Assembly: GCA_947581905.1 (NCBI GenBank)
Contig: CANPWC010000005.1
Location: forward strand, 1-34,095
Origin: an uncultured Acetatifactor sp.
GTDB taxonomy: Bacteria; Bacillota; Clostridia; Lachnospirales; Lachnospiraceae
Reading direction: 5' to 3'
DNA length: 34,095 nucleotides
This document shows positions 27,516 to 34,095 of this stretch, piece by piece. The position numbers and the translations under genes are program-made. The notes below the pieces were generated by a model. The model made no database searches and had not been told where the DNA came from. It saw only the letters and a program-made list of their open reading frames with translations. Each line of letters starts with the position of its first letter. Within the stretch, counting starts at the first letter, position 1.

Positions 27516-30248
27516 ATGGGCGGACAAGGGCAAAGGGCGTCGCATCGGCCGGTCTGCATCGGTCTGCTCGCCCATGTGGATGCGGGCAAGACGACCCTTG
27601 CGGAGGGCATTTTATATCTGAACGGAAAATTACGCAAGCTGGGCAGGGTGGACCACAAGGACGCGTTTTTAGATACCTACGAGCTGGAACGGGCCAGGGG
27701 CATCACCATCTTTTCCAAGCAGGCGCTTGTTACGCTGGGCGATTGGGAAGTGACCCTGTTGGATACGCCGGGGCATGTGGACTTCTCGGCGGAAATGGAG
27801 CGGGTGCTGCAGGTGCTGGACCTGGCGGTGCTCATCATAAGCGGGGCGGACGGCGTGCAGGGGCATGTGGAGACTTTGTGGAGGCTGCTTGGGCAGTACC
27901 AGGTCCCCACGGTCTTATTCCTCAATAAGATGGACCAGCCCGGGACGGACCGGGCCAGGCTGCTTTCCCAGGTGCAGAAGCAGTTGGACGAGCGCTGCGT
28001 GGATTTTGACGAGGCGCAGGATGGGCAGGCTTTCCTGGAAAACCTTTCCATGTGCGAGGTCGGCTTGATGGAGGAATATCTGGAGAGCGGCAAGATCGAG
28101 GACTCCTCCATCCGGCGCTCGATCGGCAGGCGGGAGGTGTTCCCCTGCTTTTTCGGGTCGGCGCTTCGGCTGACCGGGGTGGAGGAATTTTTGCGAGGCC
28201 TGGAGCGGTATCTGCCGGAAAGCGGGAAAGCGTCCGACGCCTTTGGCGCGCGGGTGTATAAGATTTCCAGGGACGCCCAGGGGACGCGCCTGACCCATAT
28301 GAAGGTCACGGGAGGGAGCCTTAAGGTCAAATCCCTGGTTTCCGGGGAAAAAGTGGACCAAATCCGCATTTATGACGGGGATGGCTACCAGCTGGCGGAG
28401 GAAGCGGGCGCGGGGACGGTGTGCGCCGTGACCGGGCTGGACGAGACGTTTTGCGGGCAGGGGCTCGGCACGGAAAAAGAGCGGACCGTCCCGCTCCTGG
28501 AACCGGTGCTCACGTATCGGGTCCATTCCTTGCAGGAAAGCGACCCGGTGAAGCTTTTGGGGCAGCTTAGGCGGCTGGAGGAAGAGATCCCGGAGCTGCA
28601 TATCGTGTGGAAAGAGGCTTCCAGGGAGATCCATGCCCAGGTCATGGGAGAGGTGCAGATCGAGATCCTGCAGAGCCTGATCCGGGAACGGTTCGGCGTT
28701 TCCGTGGCGTTTGACGCGGGCAGCATCGTTTATAAGGAAACCATCGCCGCGCCGGTGGAGGGCGTCGGGCATTTTGAACCCTTGCGGCATTATGCGGAGG
28801 TCCATCTTTTGCTGGAACCGGGGGAGCCGGGAAGCGGCATGCAGTTTTCCAGCGCCTGCAGCGAGGATGTGCTGGACCGTAATTGGCAGCGGCTGATCTT
28901 GACCCATTTGGAGGAGCGGCGGCATGTGGGCGTGTTGACCGGTTCGGAGGTGACGGACCTGCGCATCGTGTTGGTGGCGGGGCGGGCGCACCAGAAGCAT
29001 ACAGAAGGCGGGGATTTCCGCCAGGCCACGTACCGCGCCGTGCGGCAGGGGCTTCGGAAAGCCCGAAGCATCCTTTTAGAGCCGGTGTATGAGTTCACCC
29101 TTGAGGTGCCTACCGAGGCACTAGGGCGTGCCATCACGGACATCCAGCGGATGCAGGGAAGCATCCAGGCGCCCCAGTCCCAGGACGGGATGTCCCTTTT
29201 GCGGGGCAAGGCTCCCGTGGCGACGATGCAGGGGTATCAGACGGAAGTGGTGTCCTACACCCATGGCAGGGGGAGGCTGCATTGCCTGTTGGGCGGCTAT
29301 GAGCCATGCCATAATGCGGAGGAAGTGATCGCCCGCATCGGGTATGACCCGGAGGCGGACCTGGACAATCCGACGGGAAGCGTGTTCTGCGCCCATGGGG
29401 CTGGCTTTGTGGTGAGCTGGGACCAGGTGGATTCCTATGCGCATGTGGAAAGCGGGCTTTCGCTGGAAAAAGAGGAGCCGCAGGGCGAGGGCGGGGCGAA
29501 AGGCGTAATGCCTTCGGACCGGTCGGCGGGAGGCGCTGCGGCGGGCGGGTCCGCCGCTTCGAAGGATGCCTGGATCGACGAGGAAGAGCTGGAAGAGATT
29601 TTCACCAGGACCTATGGCCCGATCAAGCGGGACCGGAACCGTTTCGGGCAAAACAGGGACCGAAGCAGGATGGAGCCTGACCTGTCCGTGCGGCAAAGCT
29701 TCGCGGGAAGCGGGATGCTTCGGACGCGGACCTGGGAGGCAAGGGCGGATCAGGAAGAATATCTGTTGGTGGACGGCTATAATATCATTTTTGCCTGGGA
29801 GGACCTGAAAGAATTGGCCCAGGCGAACATTGACTCGGCCCGGTCCAAGCTGATGGACGTCCTTTGCAATTACCAGGGCTTTCGGCAAAACACGGTGATC
29901 CTGGTCTTTGACGCGTATAAGGTAAAGGGCAATCCGGGAAGCGTGGAGAAGTACCATAATATTTATGTGGTTTACACCAAGGAGGCGGAGACCGCGGACC
30001 AGTATATCGAGAAAACGGTCCACCGCATCGGGCAAAAGTATCGTGTGACGGTGGCGACCTCGGACGCCTTGGAGCAGATGATCATATGGGGCGAGGGGGC
30101 GGCGAGGCTGTCCGCCAAAGGGCTTAAGGAGGAGATCGCCAGCGTGGAGGGGCAGATCCGGGAGACGGCCAGGGAGAAGCTTCCGAAGAAAGGGAACTAC
30201 CCGTTCCGGGACATGTCCGAGAAGTTCCGGGGCGGAAGCGGGACTTAA
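27516..30248 (+). CDS. EF-G/Tet(M)-like ribosomal GTPase fused to a YacP/Rae1-type NYN nuclease
   Basis: 910 residues. The GTPase domain is complete: AHVDAGKTT at 19-27, RGIT at 61-64, DTPGH at 83-87, NKMD at 137-140. EF-G-like domains II-V follow to about residue 640, in the order found in Tet(M)/Tet(O) ribosomal protection proteins. However, the Tet(M) domain IV tip (SPVSTPADFR) reads HQKHTEGGDFR here, so drug resistance is doubtful. After a charged linker, residues about 745-880 form a NYN/PIN-like domain: LLVDGYNIIFAWEDL, LVFDAYKVKG, ETADQYIEKTVHRIG and VATSDALEQ, the acidic set of YacP. B. subtilis YacP (Rae1) cleaves mRNA in the ribosomal A site. The fusion would bring an A-site nuclease to ribosomes with a factor that displaces A-site ligands. 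Tet-family label sure, joint function inferred. Confidence 0.9.
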   Translation: MGGQGQRASHRPVCIGLLAHVDAGKTTLAEGILYLNGKLRKLGRVDHKDAFLDTYELERARGITIFSKQALVTLGDWEVTLLDTPGHVDFSAEMERVLQVLDLAVLIISGADGVQGHVETLWRLLGQYQVPTVLFLNKMDQPGTDRARLLSQVQKQLDERCVDFDEAQDGQAFLENLSMCEVGLMEEYLESGKIEDSSIRRSIGRREVFPCFFGSALRLTGVEEFLRGLERYLPESGKASDAFGARVYKISRDAQGTRLTHMKVTGGSLKVKSLVSGEKVDQIRIYDGDGYQLAEEAGAGTVCAVTGLDETFCGQGLGTEKERTVPLLEPVLTYRVHSLQESDPVKLLGQLRRLEEEIPELHIVWKEASREIHAQVMGEVQIEILQSLIRERFGVSVAFDAGSIVYKETIAAPVEGVGHFEPLRHYAEVHLLLEPGEPGSGMQFSSACSEDVLDRNWQRLILTHLEERRHVGVLTGSEVTDLRIVLVAGRAHQKHTEGGDFRQATYRAVRQGLRKARSILLEPVYEFTLEVPTEALGRAITDIQRMQGSIQAPQSQDGMSLLRGKAPVATMQGYQTEVVSYTHGRGRLHCLLGGYEPCHNAEEVIARIGYDPEADLDNPTGSVFCAHGAGFVVSWDQVDSYAHVESGLSLEKEEPQGEGGAKGVMPSDRSAGGAAAGGSAASKDAWIDEEELEEIFTRTYGPIKRDRNRFGQNRDRSRMEPDLSVRQSFAGSGMLRTRTWEARADQEEYLLVDGYNIIFAWEDLKELAQANIDSARSKLMDVLCNYQGFRQNTVILVFDAYKVKGNPGSVEKYHNIYVVYTKEAETADQYIEKTVHRIGQKYRVTVATSDALEQMIIWGEGAARLSAKGLKEEIASVEGQIRETAREKLPKKGNYPFRDMSEKFRGGSGT

Positions 30249-30318: not shown

Positions 30319-32841
30319 ATGATGGAGGTTGCGACGATTTTACAGGAAGTGGACCGGCTCCAGGATGAGAACAGGGGCGCGGAAGCGGAAGAATTGATGA
30401 AGCAGGGCATCCGGTCTGCAGTGGAGGAAGAGGACGACGACGCGCTGCTTGTGCTGCTGAATGAGCTGATCGGCTATTATCGGGAGACCAGCCAGGCCGA
30501 GAACTCCTACCAGTTGGCCGACCAGGCGAAGAAGCTGATGGCGCGGATGGGGTTGGAGGGGACGATCCCTTATGCCACAACCCTGTTGAATATCGCGAAC
30601 GCCTATCGGGCGGGCGGCAGATTGCAGGATTCCTTGCAGCATTACCATGAAACGATGGATATATATGAAAGATTGTTGTCTCCTGACGATATGCTGGTGG
30701 CAAGCCTGAAGAACAATATCAGCTTGCTGTATCAGGAGATGGGCGATTTTCAGAAAGCGAAGGAGTGCCTGATGGAGGCGCTTCGCATCGTGGAGAGGCA
30801 GCAGGACGCTTATTTTGAACTGGCAGTCACCTACGCCAACCTGGCAGGCACCTGCTTAAGCTTAAACCAGGATGAGGAAGCGGCAGGATATTTCCGGGAG
30901 GCGATCCGCATCTTCGAGGCCCATGGGATAGAGGAGGCCCATTATAGCGCGGCTTTGGCTTCCCTTGCCACCTATGAGTATAAACATGGCAATTATGAGG
31001 AAGCGGCGCGGCAGTACCGCAAGGCGATGGACTGCGTGCGCAAGTCCTTGGGGGAGAACGAGCATTATAGACGCTTGCAGGAGTACCTGGCAGCCTGCGA
31101 GAAGAAGCTTGCGGAATCTGCAGCGGACGAAGCGGAGGCAGCGCAGGCGGGCGTTGCGGAATCCCCGACGGGCGGCGCGGCAGCAGGAACGCAGGCGGGC
31201 GTTGCAGAATCCCCGGCGGGTGAGGCGGCAGAGGCAGCGCAGGAGAGCGTTGCGGAATCTGCAGCAGGCGAAGCGGAGGCAACGCAGGAGGGCGAAGCGG
31301 AGGCAGCGCAGGAAGGCGGCGCGCCAAACGGGCTTGCGTTATGCAGGGGATATTACGAGGATTGCGTGGCACCTATGATAAAGGATCGGTTCCCAGCATA
31401 TGCGGACCGGATCGCGGCCGGGCTGGTCGGGGAGGGTTCCGACTGCTTTGGCTGGGATGACGCCATTTCCCGGGATCATGATTGGGGCCCGGATGTTTGC
31501 CTGTGGGTGACGCGGGAGACTTGGGATGAGATCGGGGAAGCCCTGACAGAGGCTTATGAGGGCCTGCCCCTGGAATATCGGGGCCTGGTCCGCACGAAAA
31601 GCGCCCGGGGCGCAGGCCGCAGGGGCGTCCAGACCATCCAGGCGTTCTATTCGCGGCTGCTGGGGGAGAATGCCTGGGAGCGTCCCGAGGAAGCTAAGCG
31701 GGGCATGGATTGGCGCGGGGCGGACGACGCCTCGCTTGCCGCCGCCACCAATGGCGAAGTGTTTTGGGATCCGGAAGGGATTTTCAGCAAAGTGCGCCTG
31801 TTTTTGTCCGAGGGCTGCCCGGAGGAGATCCGTTTCCTGAAACTAGCCCAGAGCGCCGCCCTGTTTTCCCAGGCGGGGCAATATAATTATGCCCGCGTGT
31901 GCAAGCGCGGCGACGAGGTCACGCCGCGGCTTTTGTGGGGAGAGTGCCTGAAAGAGGCGATGAAGCTGGCGCATTTTGCGGAGGGACGTTTCGCGCCCCA
32001 TGATAAGTGGCTTTGGAAGAGCCTGTGCGGGCTGCCCGGCTGTAGGAAGGTGGCGGAGCTGGTCTTAGCGGCGGCGAAAGGACGGGCGGAGGATTTCCCC
32101 CGCCATGCGGAGGAACTGGCGCAGGCCCTGGCGGCGAAGCTTTATGAAAAAGGCTTCATCAGCGATACTGACCCCTATCTGGACGCCCATACGGAGGAAT
32201 TGTTGATGAAATCCCGGTTCTCGTCTCAAACGGATGTGGAACTGGTGGAAGATATCGCCAGGCTGGAATTTGAGACTTTCGACAAGGTGCGCAACGTAGG
32301 CGGCCGGGCGGACTGCCAGGACGACTGGTACACGTTTTCCATTATGCGCAAAAGCCAGTACCAGACCTGGGACCGGACCATGCTGCTGCAATATTTGTAT
32401 GATTTCCACAGGGAAGTGGCGCTGGGGCACAACCTGATCACGGAGAAATACGGAAGGATGATGGAAAGCACCGCCCCGGAGGAATATGAGGCGATCAAGG
32501 AGCATTTCCCGGCCTTGAGCCAGGAAAAGAAAGCGATCGTGGAAGCCATCGTGCGGATGCAGGTGGGTTGGATGGAAGAGTTCGAGGCGCGCTACCCCGT
32601 CCTGGCGGGCAACGCCAGAAGCGTGCACACCACGGACGACCGCTTGGACAACACATCCTATGAGACGTATCTGCGTGGGGAGCTTAGCACTTATTCCGAT
32701 AAAATGCTGGAATTGTACGGCAGGTATGTAGTGCGCCACGCCCAAGAGGGGAAGAACCTTACCTACGAAATCATGGAAAACAGCGTGAAGCTGTACGGTT
32801 ACTCTGGCCTTGAGGAAGCGGAACGGGAAATGGCGCGGTAA
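30319..32841 (+). CDS. TPR protein fused to DUF4037 and DUF4125 domains
   Basis: 840 residues. Residues 1-255 are tetratricopeptide repeats (NIANAYRAGGRLQDSLQHY, NNISLLYQEMGDFQKAKEC, ANLAGTCLSLNQDEEAAGYF). A low-complexity Ala-Glu-Gly linker follows (about 262-338). The DUF4037 region (about 340-600) begins with LVGEGSDCFGWDDAISRDHDWGP, which has the Gly-Ser and acidic pattern of nucleotidyltransferases. The C-terminal DUF4125 region (about 630-830) includes GRADCQDDWYTFSIMRKSQY and HTTDDRLDNTSYETYLRGE. Both assignments are from memory. No signal peptide. ATG 30319 is followed at once by a second ATG; the ribosome site GAGGG is modest. Its 3' end overlaps the convergent MsrA fusion gene by 43 bp. 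A nucleotide-transfer role is possible but untested. Confidence 0.8.
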   Translation: MMEVATILQEVDRLQDENRGAEAEELMKQGIRSAVEEEDDDALLVLLNELIGYYRETSQAENSYQLADQAKKLMARMGLEGTIPYATTLLNIANAYRAGGRLQDSLQHYHETMDIYERLLSPDDMLVASLKNNISLLYQEMGDFQKAKECLMEALRIVERQQDAYFELAVTYANLAGTCLSLNQDEEAAGYFREAIRIFEAHGIEEAHYSAALASLATYEYKHGNYEEAARQYRKAMDCVRKSLGENEHYRRLQEYLAACEKKLAESAADEAEAAQAGVAESPTGGAAAGTQAGVAESPAGEAAEAAQESVAESAAGEAEATQEGEAEAAQEGGAPNGLALCRGYYEDCVAPMIKDRFPAYADRIAAGLVGEGSDCFGWDDAISRDHDWGPDVCLWVTRETWDEIGEALTEAYEGLPLEYRGLVRTKSARGAGRRGVQTIQAFYSRLLGENAWERPEEAKRGMDWRGADDASLAAATNGEVFWDPEGIFSKVRLFLSEGCPEEIRFLKLAQSAALFSQAGQYNYARVCKRGDEVTPRLLWGECLKEAMKLAHFAEGRFAPHDKWLWKSLCGLPGCRKVAELVLAAAKGRAEDFPRHAEELAQALAAKLYEKGFISDTDPYLDAHTEELLMKSRFSSQTDVELVEDIARLEFETFDKVRNVGGRADCQDDWYTFSIMRKSQYQTWDRTMLLQYLYDFHREVALGHNLITEKYGRMMESTAPEEYEAIKEHFPALSQEKKAIVEAIVRMQVGWMEEFEARYPVLAGNARSVHTTDDRLDNTSYETYLRGELSTYSDKMLELYGRYVVRHAQEGKNLTYEIMENSVKLYGYSGLEEAEREMAR
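31102..31330 (+). repeat. Degenerate coding repeats for an Ala-Glu-Gly linker
   Basis: Several imperfect copies of a unit like GCAGGCGGGCGTTGCGGAATCCCC are seen, encoding repeats such as GVAESPxGxAAxA. The best pair is near 31146-31168 and 31191-31213. The copies separate the TPR and DUF4037 domains and probably vary in number between strains. Confidence 0.6.
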
Positions 32842-34095
32842 GCCTTGGCGGCCTCAAAATGGGCCGCCCCGATGTGGCAATAGCCGCCGGGATTCTTTTC
32901 CAGGTACTTCTGATGATATTCCTCCGCGTCATAGAAATTTTGGAGGGCCGAAGCCTCGACCGCCAGGGGCTCCTTATAGCGCTTCTGCAAGGCGGCGAGG
33001 GAGCGCTCCACGATTTCCTTGTGGGCAGGGTTGGTGTAGTAGATGCCCGTGCGATACTGGACCCCCACATCCTCCCCCTGCCGATTGACGGAGGTGGGGT
33101 CGATCACCTGGTAATATTGTTCCAACAGCTCTTCCAGGGAAATCCGGGAAGCGTCGAACAAGACCCGCACCGTCTCCGCATGGCCGGTTCCTTCGTGCTT
33201 GACCTGTTCATAGGTGGGGTTTTGTGTGCGGCCGTTGGCATAGCCGACCCTGGTTTCCACCACGCCTTCCAGGCAGTCAAAATAACGCTGGGTGCCCCAG
33301 AAGCATCCGCCTGCCAGATAGATTTCCTGCGGCACATATTTTTCCAAAGTCCTGGCAACGGCTCCGATGCCGCTGGAAAGCTGGGCGAAATATCCTTTCA
33401 CGGCATCCGCCATGCCGATTGCCGTCAAGTCTGCGCCGAAGATCTTGGCATTGCCAAGAAGGCCGTCCAACCGGGACAAGTCCTTGGGCGCGTCGCTCAA
33501 TTCAAATCCTGCCACATAGGGGGCAAGGTCCTCAAATAAGGGGTCCGGGCTTAAAGGGAACGCGTTCCCGGCGTCGTCCACCGCCATCAGGTAGCGCAGC
33601 CAGCCCGCGAATACCAGGGGGATTAGCCTTAGGCTTCCCACATCCAGGTCTTCCCGTTTTTGATAAGCCTGTATGGTCTCGCCGAAACGCACGGCCAGCT
33701 TCTGGGAAGTATCGGTGGCAATCCGCTGGGGGGTGTCCGGCAGGAACGGGTTGGGGATCCGGATGTTGACCACGGTGTCGAGAAATTCCCTAGGATCCAG
33801 GATGCCTGGGTCCGCGGCCACAGGCAGCCCCTCTTGATAGCCGATCGTTTTTGCGAGGGATTTCAATAGAGGGTTCCCCATTTCTTCCGAAATCAGGTGG
33901 TAGCCCAGCAGGCAGCCATAGATTGCTAGGGCGGTATGCAGCGGGTTCAGGCAGGTGCAGACTTTCATCTTCTCCGCCTTTTCAACCGTCTGCCTGTCCG
34001 TGAAAAAGATGCCGCCTTTTTCCAAGGGAGGCCTGCCGTTGGGGAACTGGTCCTCGATGACGAGGTATTCGCATTCTTCCGCGTTCACGAAAGGG
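32799..34095 (-). CDS. msrA (C-terminal part): Mannitol dehydrogenase/UxuB-type domain fused to MsrA; 5' end beyond the window
   Basis: The frame is open through the right edge. The GTG at 34088 listed as a start lies inside a conserved run (PFVNAEECEYLVIEDQFPNG), so the true start is outside. The visible first 245 residues are the C-terminal half of the mannitol dehydrogenase/fructuronate reductase family (CTCLNPLHTALAIYGCLLGY, IRIPNPFLPDTPQRIATDTSQK). The NAD-binding half should lie upstream. From about residue 255 the same frame runs into a complete MsrA: catalytic Cys262 in LAGGCFWG, VGYANGRTQNPTYE, GTGHAETV, NRQGEDVGVQYRTGIYY and a possible resolving Cys in GGYCHI. MsrA reduces methionine-S-sulfoxide in proteins with thioredoxin. 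No ribosome site or stop separates the two parts. The 3' end overlaps the convergent TPR gene. A true fusion or a lost stop are both possible. Confidence 0.88.
   Translation of the reverse strand, partial: PFVNAEECEYLVIEDQFPNGRPPLEKGGIFFTDRQTVEKAEKMKVCTCLNPLHTALAIYGCLLGYHLISEEMGNPLLKSLAKTIGYQEGLPVAADPGILDPREFLDTVVNIRIPNPFLPDTPQRIATDTSQKLAVRFGETIQAYQKREDLDVGSLRLIPLVFAGWLRYLMAVDDAGNAFPLSPDPLFEDLAPYVAGFELSDAPKDLSRLDGLLGNAKIFGADLTAIGMADAVKGYFAQLSSGIGAVARTLEKYVPQEIYLAGGCFWGTQRYFDCLEGVVETRVGYANGRTQNPTYEQVKHEGTGHAETVRVLFDASRISLEELLEQYYQVIDPTSVNRQGEDVGVQYRTGIYYTNPAHKEIVERSLAALQKRYKEPLAVEASALQNFYDAEEYHQKYLEKNPGGYCHIGAAHFEAAKAYRAISRSASSRPE

Follow-up and report, generated by a model that had tools for sequence, protein, structure and literature searches.

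A coding segment of msrA joined in frame to the uxuB gene in a metagenome-derived Acetatifactor genome

The window analysed here is the entire contig C5 (34,095 bp), one of the 230 contigs of a metagenome-derived genome of an uncultured Acetatifactor species. Its end carries an open reading frame in which the C-terminal half of a UxuB-type oxidoreductase is continued by a methionine sulfoxide reductase A (MsrA). Since this contig terminates within the gene, the fusion gene is 5'-truncated. The features of the locus are listed below, with G063 and G132 designating two related genomes.

32799..34094, minus strand: single open frame uxuB (C-terminal half)-msrA, 431 codons followed by TAA, 5' end lost at the contig end
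33333..34094, minus strand: UxuB-type fructuronate/mannonate oxidoreductase, C-terminal half (amino acids 1-254), PF08125, 80% identity to relatives
33963-33965, 33945-33947 and 33936-33938, minus strand: Lys44, Asn50 and His53 of the UxuB part, conserved
33330..33332, minus strand: junction codon Pro255 (CCG), flanked by the last residues with UxuB homology (...EKYV) and the first with MsrA homology (QEIYL...)
33333..33335, minus strand: in-frame GTG (Val254), candidate internal initiation codon from which a free MsrA (MPQEIYLAGG...) could be translated, with GGA seven bases upstream
32835..33329, minus strand: complete MsrA domain (amino acids 256-420), 82-85% identity to the MsrA of G063 and G132
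32799..32834, minus strand: new MsrA tail (AISRSASSRPE and stop), antisense reading of the last codons of the neighbouring gene
30319..32841, plus strand: convergent neighbouring gene (TPR repeats, DUF4037, DUF4125), sharing 43 bp at its 3' end with the fusion gene

The convergent neighbour encodes a protein of 840 amino acids. Elsewhere in the window, positions 27516-30248 (plus strand) encode a protein of 910 amino acids in which Tet(M)-like/EF-G translational GTPase domains precede a YacP-like NYN RNase domain. This protein is also present in the related genome G100 (L148:2992-5757) and scores below the NCBIfam cut-offs for tetracycline resistance (395 vs 775 bits). Such an architecture has been described in ten Clostridiales species (PMC4342817).

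Two Pfam models match the fusion frame: PF08125 (Mannitol_dh_C) at residues 37-225 (E-value 1.6e-17, 64 bits for a cut-off of 30.7) and PF01625 (MsrA), over its full length, at residues 257-407 (E-value 9.8e-62, 208 bits for a cut-off of 23.7). The MsrA part is also recognized by TIGR00401 (194.7 bits, cut-off 108.1). These very low E-values, and the fact that in relatives the junction is precisely the limit of both homologies, indicate that the join is not a chance match. The sequence-only reading of this locus had proposed one open frame passing from the C-terminal half of UxuB into a full MsrA with its catalytic Cys, with a junction around 33330; the 431 codons are indeed uninterrupted and contain both domains, Cys264 is conserved and the join maps to 33330-33332. 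The MsrA part keeps the residues Cys264 (in GCFWG), Tyr295, Glu307, Asp342, Tyr347 and Cys406, all invariant in the MsrA alignment, which we take from E. coli MsrA to be the catalytic Cys, the Glu/Tyr/Asp/Tyr pocket and the resolving Cys. In the UxuB part, Lys44, Asn50 and His53 (catalytic K/N/H) are invariant among relatives and aligned with those of the structures 4im7 and 1lj8. The alignments show that both catalytic sets are retained in the predicted UxuB-MsrA protein. This MsrA is the only one of the genome. No MsrB domain was detected, either in the fusion frame or in the rest of the genome, so the protein is not a bifunctional reductase of the MsrAB type.

The N-terminal, NAD-binding half of UxuB (PF01232) is present in the UxuB homologue of G100 and was not found anywhere in this assembly. 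By comparison with a UxuB homologue of 538 residues, 283 amino acids are missing; together with the 431 that are encoded on C5, the full-length fusion is estimated at ~714 amino acids and roughly 79 kDa, rather than the ~75 kDa first proposed for a fused product. The gene uxuA sits on contig C196 and is likewise cut by a contig end. As both genes are cut in this way, the expected uxuA-uxuB pair would fall in an assembly gap of ~1.1 kb. In relatives uxuB adjoins uxuA, and from these genomes we infer that uxuA also lies next to the fusion gene here. The same adjacency points to a fructuronate reductase function for the UxuB part; the NCBIfam model NF011611 (fructuronate reductase, cut-off 603) gives scores below its cut-off, 74.7 bits with the fragment and 135 bits with a full homologue.

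The two ends of the msrA segment are sharply delimited. On the left, the uxuB of relatives closes with ...TLEKYVK-stop, and the fusion reads ...ARTLEKYV-P-QEIYLAGGCFWG. The UxuB homology extends up to Val254 and the MsrA homology starts at Gln256, so that a single codon (Pro255) separates them. Among the 80 nearest uxuB genes from public genomes none continues into MsrA; all 80 stop within a few codons of the junction point (one of them 17 codons later). On the right, the MsrA homology reaches about Arg420, the last eleven residues are the antisense of the convergent neighbour, and the own stop of this neighbour falls within the msrA segment. The homologies to the two parents thus abut within one codon on the left and within a few bases on the right. 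Joined to uxuB on one side and closed by an antisense-read tail on the other, the msrA segment has neither its own start nor its own stop.

The comparison with three relatives gives an indication of the origin of this arrangement. G100 is the sister of the window genome in the UxuB tree (support 0.60). Its gene order is the TPR/DUF4037/DUF4125 gene and then, convergent with it, uxuB preceded by uxuA, and there is no msrA at this place. The spacer between the convergent genes measures 98 bp and contains, after uxuB, a GC-rich hairpin that may be a terminator (the shuffle z-score for folding of the spacer is weak, -1.45). In the window genome, this ~100-bp spacer including the hairpin is replaced by ~490 bp of msrA devoid of start and stop. 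In G063 the TPR/DUF4037/DUF4125 gene is also convergent with uxuB, about 6 kb apart. The closest MsrA sequences, those of G063 and G132, are encoded at another location, behind a LysR-type gene and with their own start. From this location elsewhere, the donor could be the msrA of a relative or a former copy of the species itself. As a mark of the old msrA site, a LysR gene was searched for in the window genome, and the best one is 34% identical. A tblastn match that resembled a UxuB remnant upstream of the G132 msrA was a chance extension.

It had been suggested that a stop codon was lost between adjacent genes. This explanation, like a missed stop or a sequencing indel between neighbours, is rejected: uxuB and msrA do not adjoin in relatives, and the whole intergenic region is gone together with the start and the stop of msrA. 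The finding of separate genes with a stop in close relatives had been proposed as an argument against a real fusion. In all relatives uxuB does end with a stop here, but without an msrA behind it, and this combination indicates a lineage-specific insertion.

The fusion is restricted to this genome in all the samples. MsrA is present in 8 of the 138 genomes of the genus and is fused in the window genome only. No other UxuB-MsrA fusion was detected in 397 sampled genomes of the family, nor among the matches listed for 391 class-level and 392 order-level genomes (the samples of family, class and order overlap), and the literature searches yielded no report on a fusion protein pairing MsrA with a mannitol dehydrogenase. 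Such a survey of related genomes had been proposed in the sequence-only reading. Long MsrA frames were considered as further UxuB fusions, and those inspected are MsrAB proteins or joins with rhodanese-like, thioredoxin-like, TadA-like, SNase or PepT partners. The joins SNase-MsrA (L168, G886) and MsrA-PepT/M20 (L167, G781) were each seen in a single sampled genome. One frame of 495 amino acids (L197, G918:C58) appears to start with a TadA-type deaminase, to which MsrA and then MsrB are joined; the TadA-like, thioredoxin-like and rhodanese-like partners of MsrAB were recognised by reading of the sequences. From these various cases, in-frame joins of MsrA to unrelated enzymes appear as sporadic events.

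Fusions of MsrA to MsrB are known, for instance the MsrAB of H. pylori (PMC8000184) and that of S. pneumoniae (PMC2713860). As in these proteins, the MsrA domain of UxuB-MsrA is included in a longer polypeptide, and the solved structures nearest to its MsrA part are those of MsrAB proteins and of the central domain of Neisseria PilB. In contrast to MsrAB, MsrA is joined here to a sugar-acid dehydrogenase and occupies the C terminus, the genome has no MsrB and a single species is concerned. The thioredoxin-like and rhodanese-like MsrAB frames (L199, L157-L159) also have an N-terminal domain before MsrA, but there the partners are redox or sulfur domains, followed by MsrAB with its MsrB. The SNase-MsrA, MsrA-PepT and TadA-like-MsrAB joins are similar to UxuB-MsrA in linking MsrA in frame to an unrelated enzyme. 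However, their downstream partner keeps a Met near the usual start (MNRKVIYLAGG in the SNase join, MNVIKQIYLAGG in the TadA join and MDAVKRFLEY in the PepT join), which fits the loss of a stop between neighbours, whereas the msrA of the window lost both ends. The UxuB part belongs, like 4im7 (UxuB/YdfI fructuronate reductase) and 1lj8 (mannitol 2-dehydrogenase), to the long-chain polyol dehydrogenase family with the K/N/H motif, and unlike them it carries MsrA at its C terminus. UxuB-MsrA stands out by the nature of the partner and by the fact that msrA lost both ends.

We consider a genuine lineage-specific fusion as the best explanation, with a probability of roughly 0.78 for the whole scenario. 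As the comparison with G100 shows, the coding sequence of msrA, ~490 bp without start or stop, replaced the ~100-bp spacer between uxuB and the TPR/DUF4037/DUF4125 gene together with its hairpin, so that a UxuB-MsrA protein of ~714 amino acids would be encoded at the end of the uxuA-uxuB operon. The two domains most likely work independently in one chain of ~79 kDa. The UxuB domain is predicted to convert D-fructuronate into D-mannonate with NADH, and the MsrA domain to reduce methionine-S-sulfoxide with thioredoxin. The main effect would be to tie production of the only MsrA of the genome to expression of the uronate operon. The structure prediction (AlphaFold) gave a pLDDT of 60 with a shallow alignment and of 35 without alignment, values too poor to describe domain packing; this low-confidence model displays the expected order of elements, with the last UxuB helix at residues 245-253 and the first MsrA strand at residues 256-262, separated by a two-residue linker.

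The alternative that survives best is that two products are made: the fusion by translation through the junction, and in addition, or mainly, a free MsrA from the GTG of Val254, msrA being expressed in both cases through the uxu operon. This GTG is exactly at the usual MsrA start (MPQEIYLAGG, compared with MKEIYLAGG and similar starts in others) and the GGA located 7 bases upstream is a weak signal in its favour. On the other hand, this codon is not special, since uxuB natively has this valine codon in G063 and other relatives, and without a stop in uxuB every ribosome completing this gene must make the fusion. A free MsrA may perhaps be made at the joint beside the fusion; we regard the two-product scenario as tentative, with less than an even chance.

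The second alternative is a decaying uronate operon, in which the constraint on uxuA and uxuB is relaxed and the insertion is neutral debris that keeps the frame by chance. The terminal branch of the UxuB half is indeed unusually long (0.25 vs 0.05 in the sister G100), this half differs from near-invariant residues at 7 sites (the second highest value of 77) and UxuA (L169, G000:C196) also has a long branch compared with sister species (0.098 vs about 0.016). No clear acceleration over relatives is observed for RecA and its neighbours, for MsrA or for the DUF4125 gene, and the RecA region does not support a general fast evolution of the lineage. The uronate operon of this species thus seems to be under relaxed or shifted constraint. 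The decay scenario is nevertheless rather unlikely: the uxuB part present on C5 contains no stop or frameshift, the catalytic residues are kept, and the pairwise dN/dS is low (~0.09), with values far under 1 for both parts, although synonymous positions approach saturation and the divergence is probably for the most part older than the fusion. The only pyruvate kinase matched in the window genome (L194, G000:C31:17026-17994) is about 47% identical to the common version of relatives, with a branch of 0.999. This gene could not be used as a rate control since the window genome has a different version, which suggests a replacement or a binning problem.

An artefact of assembly or binning, by which the contig would wrongly join uxuB to msrA, is improbable. 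The evidence comes from one metagenome-assembled genome in numerous contigs, the fusion gene is cut by a contig end, about 760 bp from the junction, and no other genome has the fusion. However, both outer flanks follow the gene order of G100, so that two independent false joins would be required, both of them exact to the base, with the reading frame preserved at the left one. Contig C5 contains no second copy of any 14-mer of the junction, while a k-mer chimera would need a k-mer shared by both sides. GC and GC3 are almost equal in both parts (GC3 of 0.72 and 0.74 on the two sides of the junction).

It is also quite improbable that UxuB-MsrA was selected as a bifunctional enzyme, in which attachment of the only MsrA to UxuB would let repair be produced with the uronate pathway, or act on it, when host uronates and oxidants coincide in the gut. 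The absence of the fusion from all other genomes examined leaves such a selection without evidence. A redox or moonlighting coupling, as evoked in the sequence-only reading, with MsrA repairing the oxidised methionines of UxuB or tying NADH chemistry to repair, finds no support beyond the two intact active sites and is highly improbable, the fusion being conserved in no other genome examined and the UxuB half evolving faster, not slower. UxuB uses NADH and MsrA uses thioredoxin, so that the domains share no cofactor and, without a thioredoxin or flavin domain as electron carrier, direct interdomain electron transfer is unlikely.

The lineage-specific insertion of msrA at the uxuB spacer thus probably reflects a recent accident of evolution rather than a known coupled machine, and the UxuB-MsrA fusion alone does not show a new biochemical link. 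It calls for caution in annotation, as the only MsrA of this genome is hidden within a "mannitol dehydrogenase". If expressed, the protein would pair MsrA with a partner that is without precedent in this analysis, and the locus would represent a cleanly resolved case of the birth of a bacterial fusion gene, in which a coding segment without start or stop replaces an intergenic spacer.
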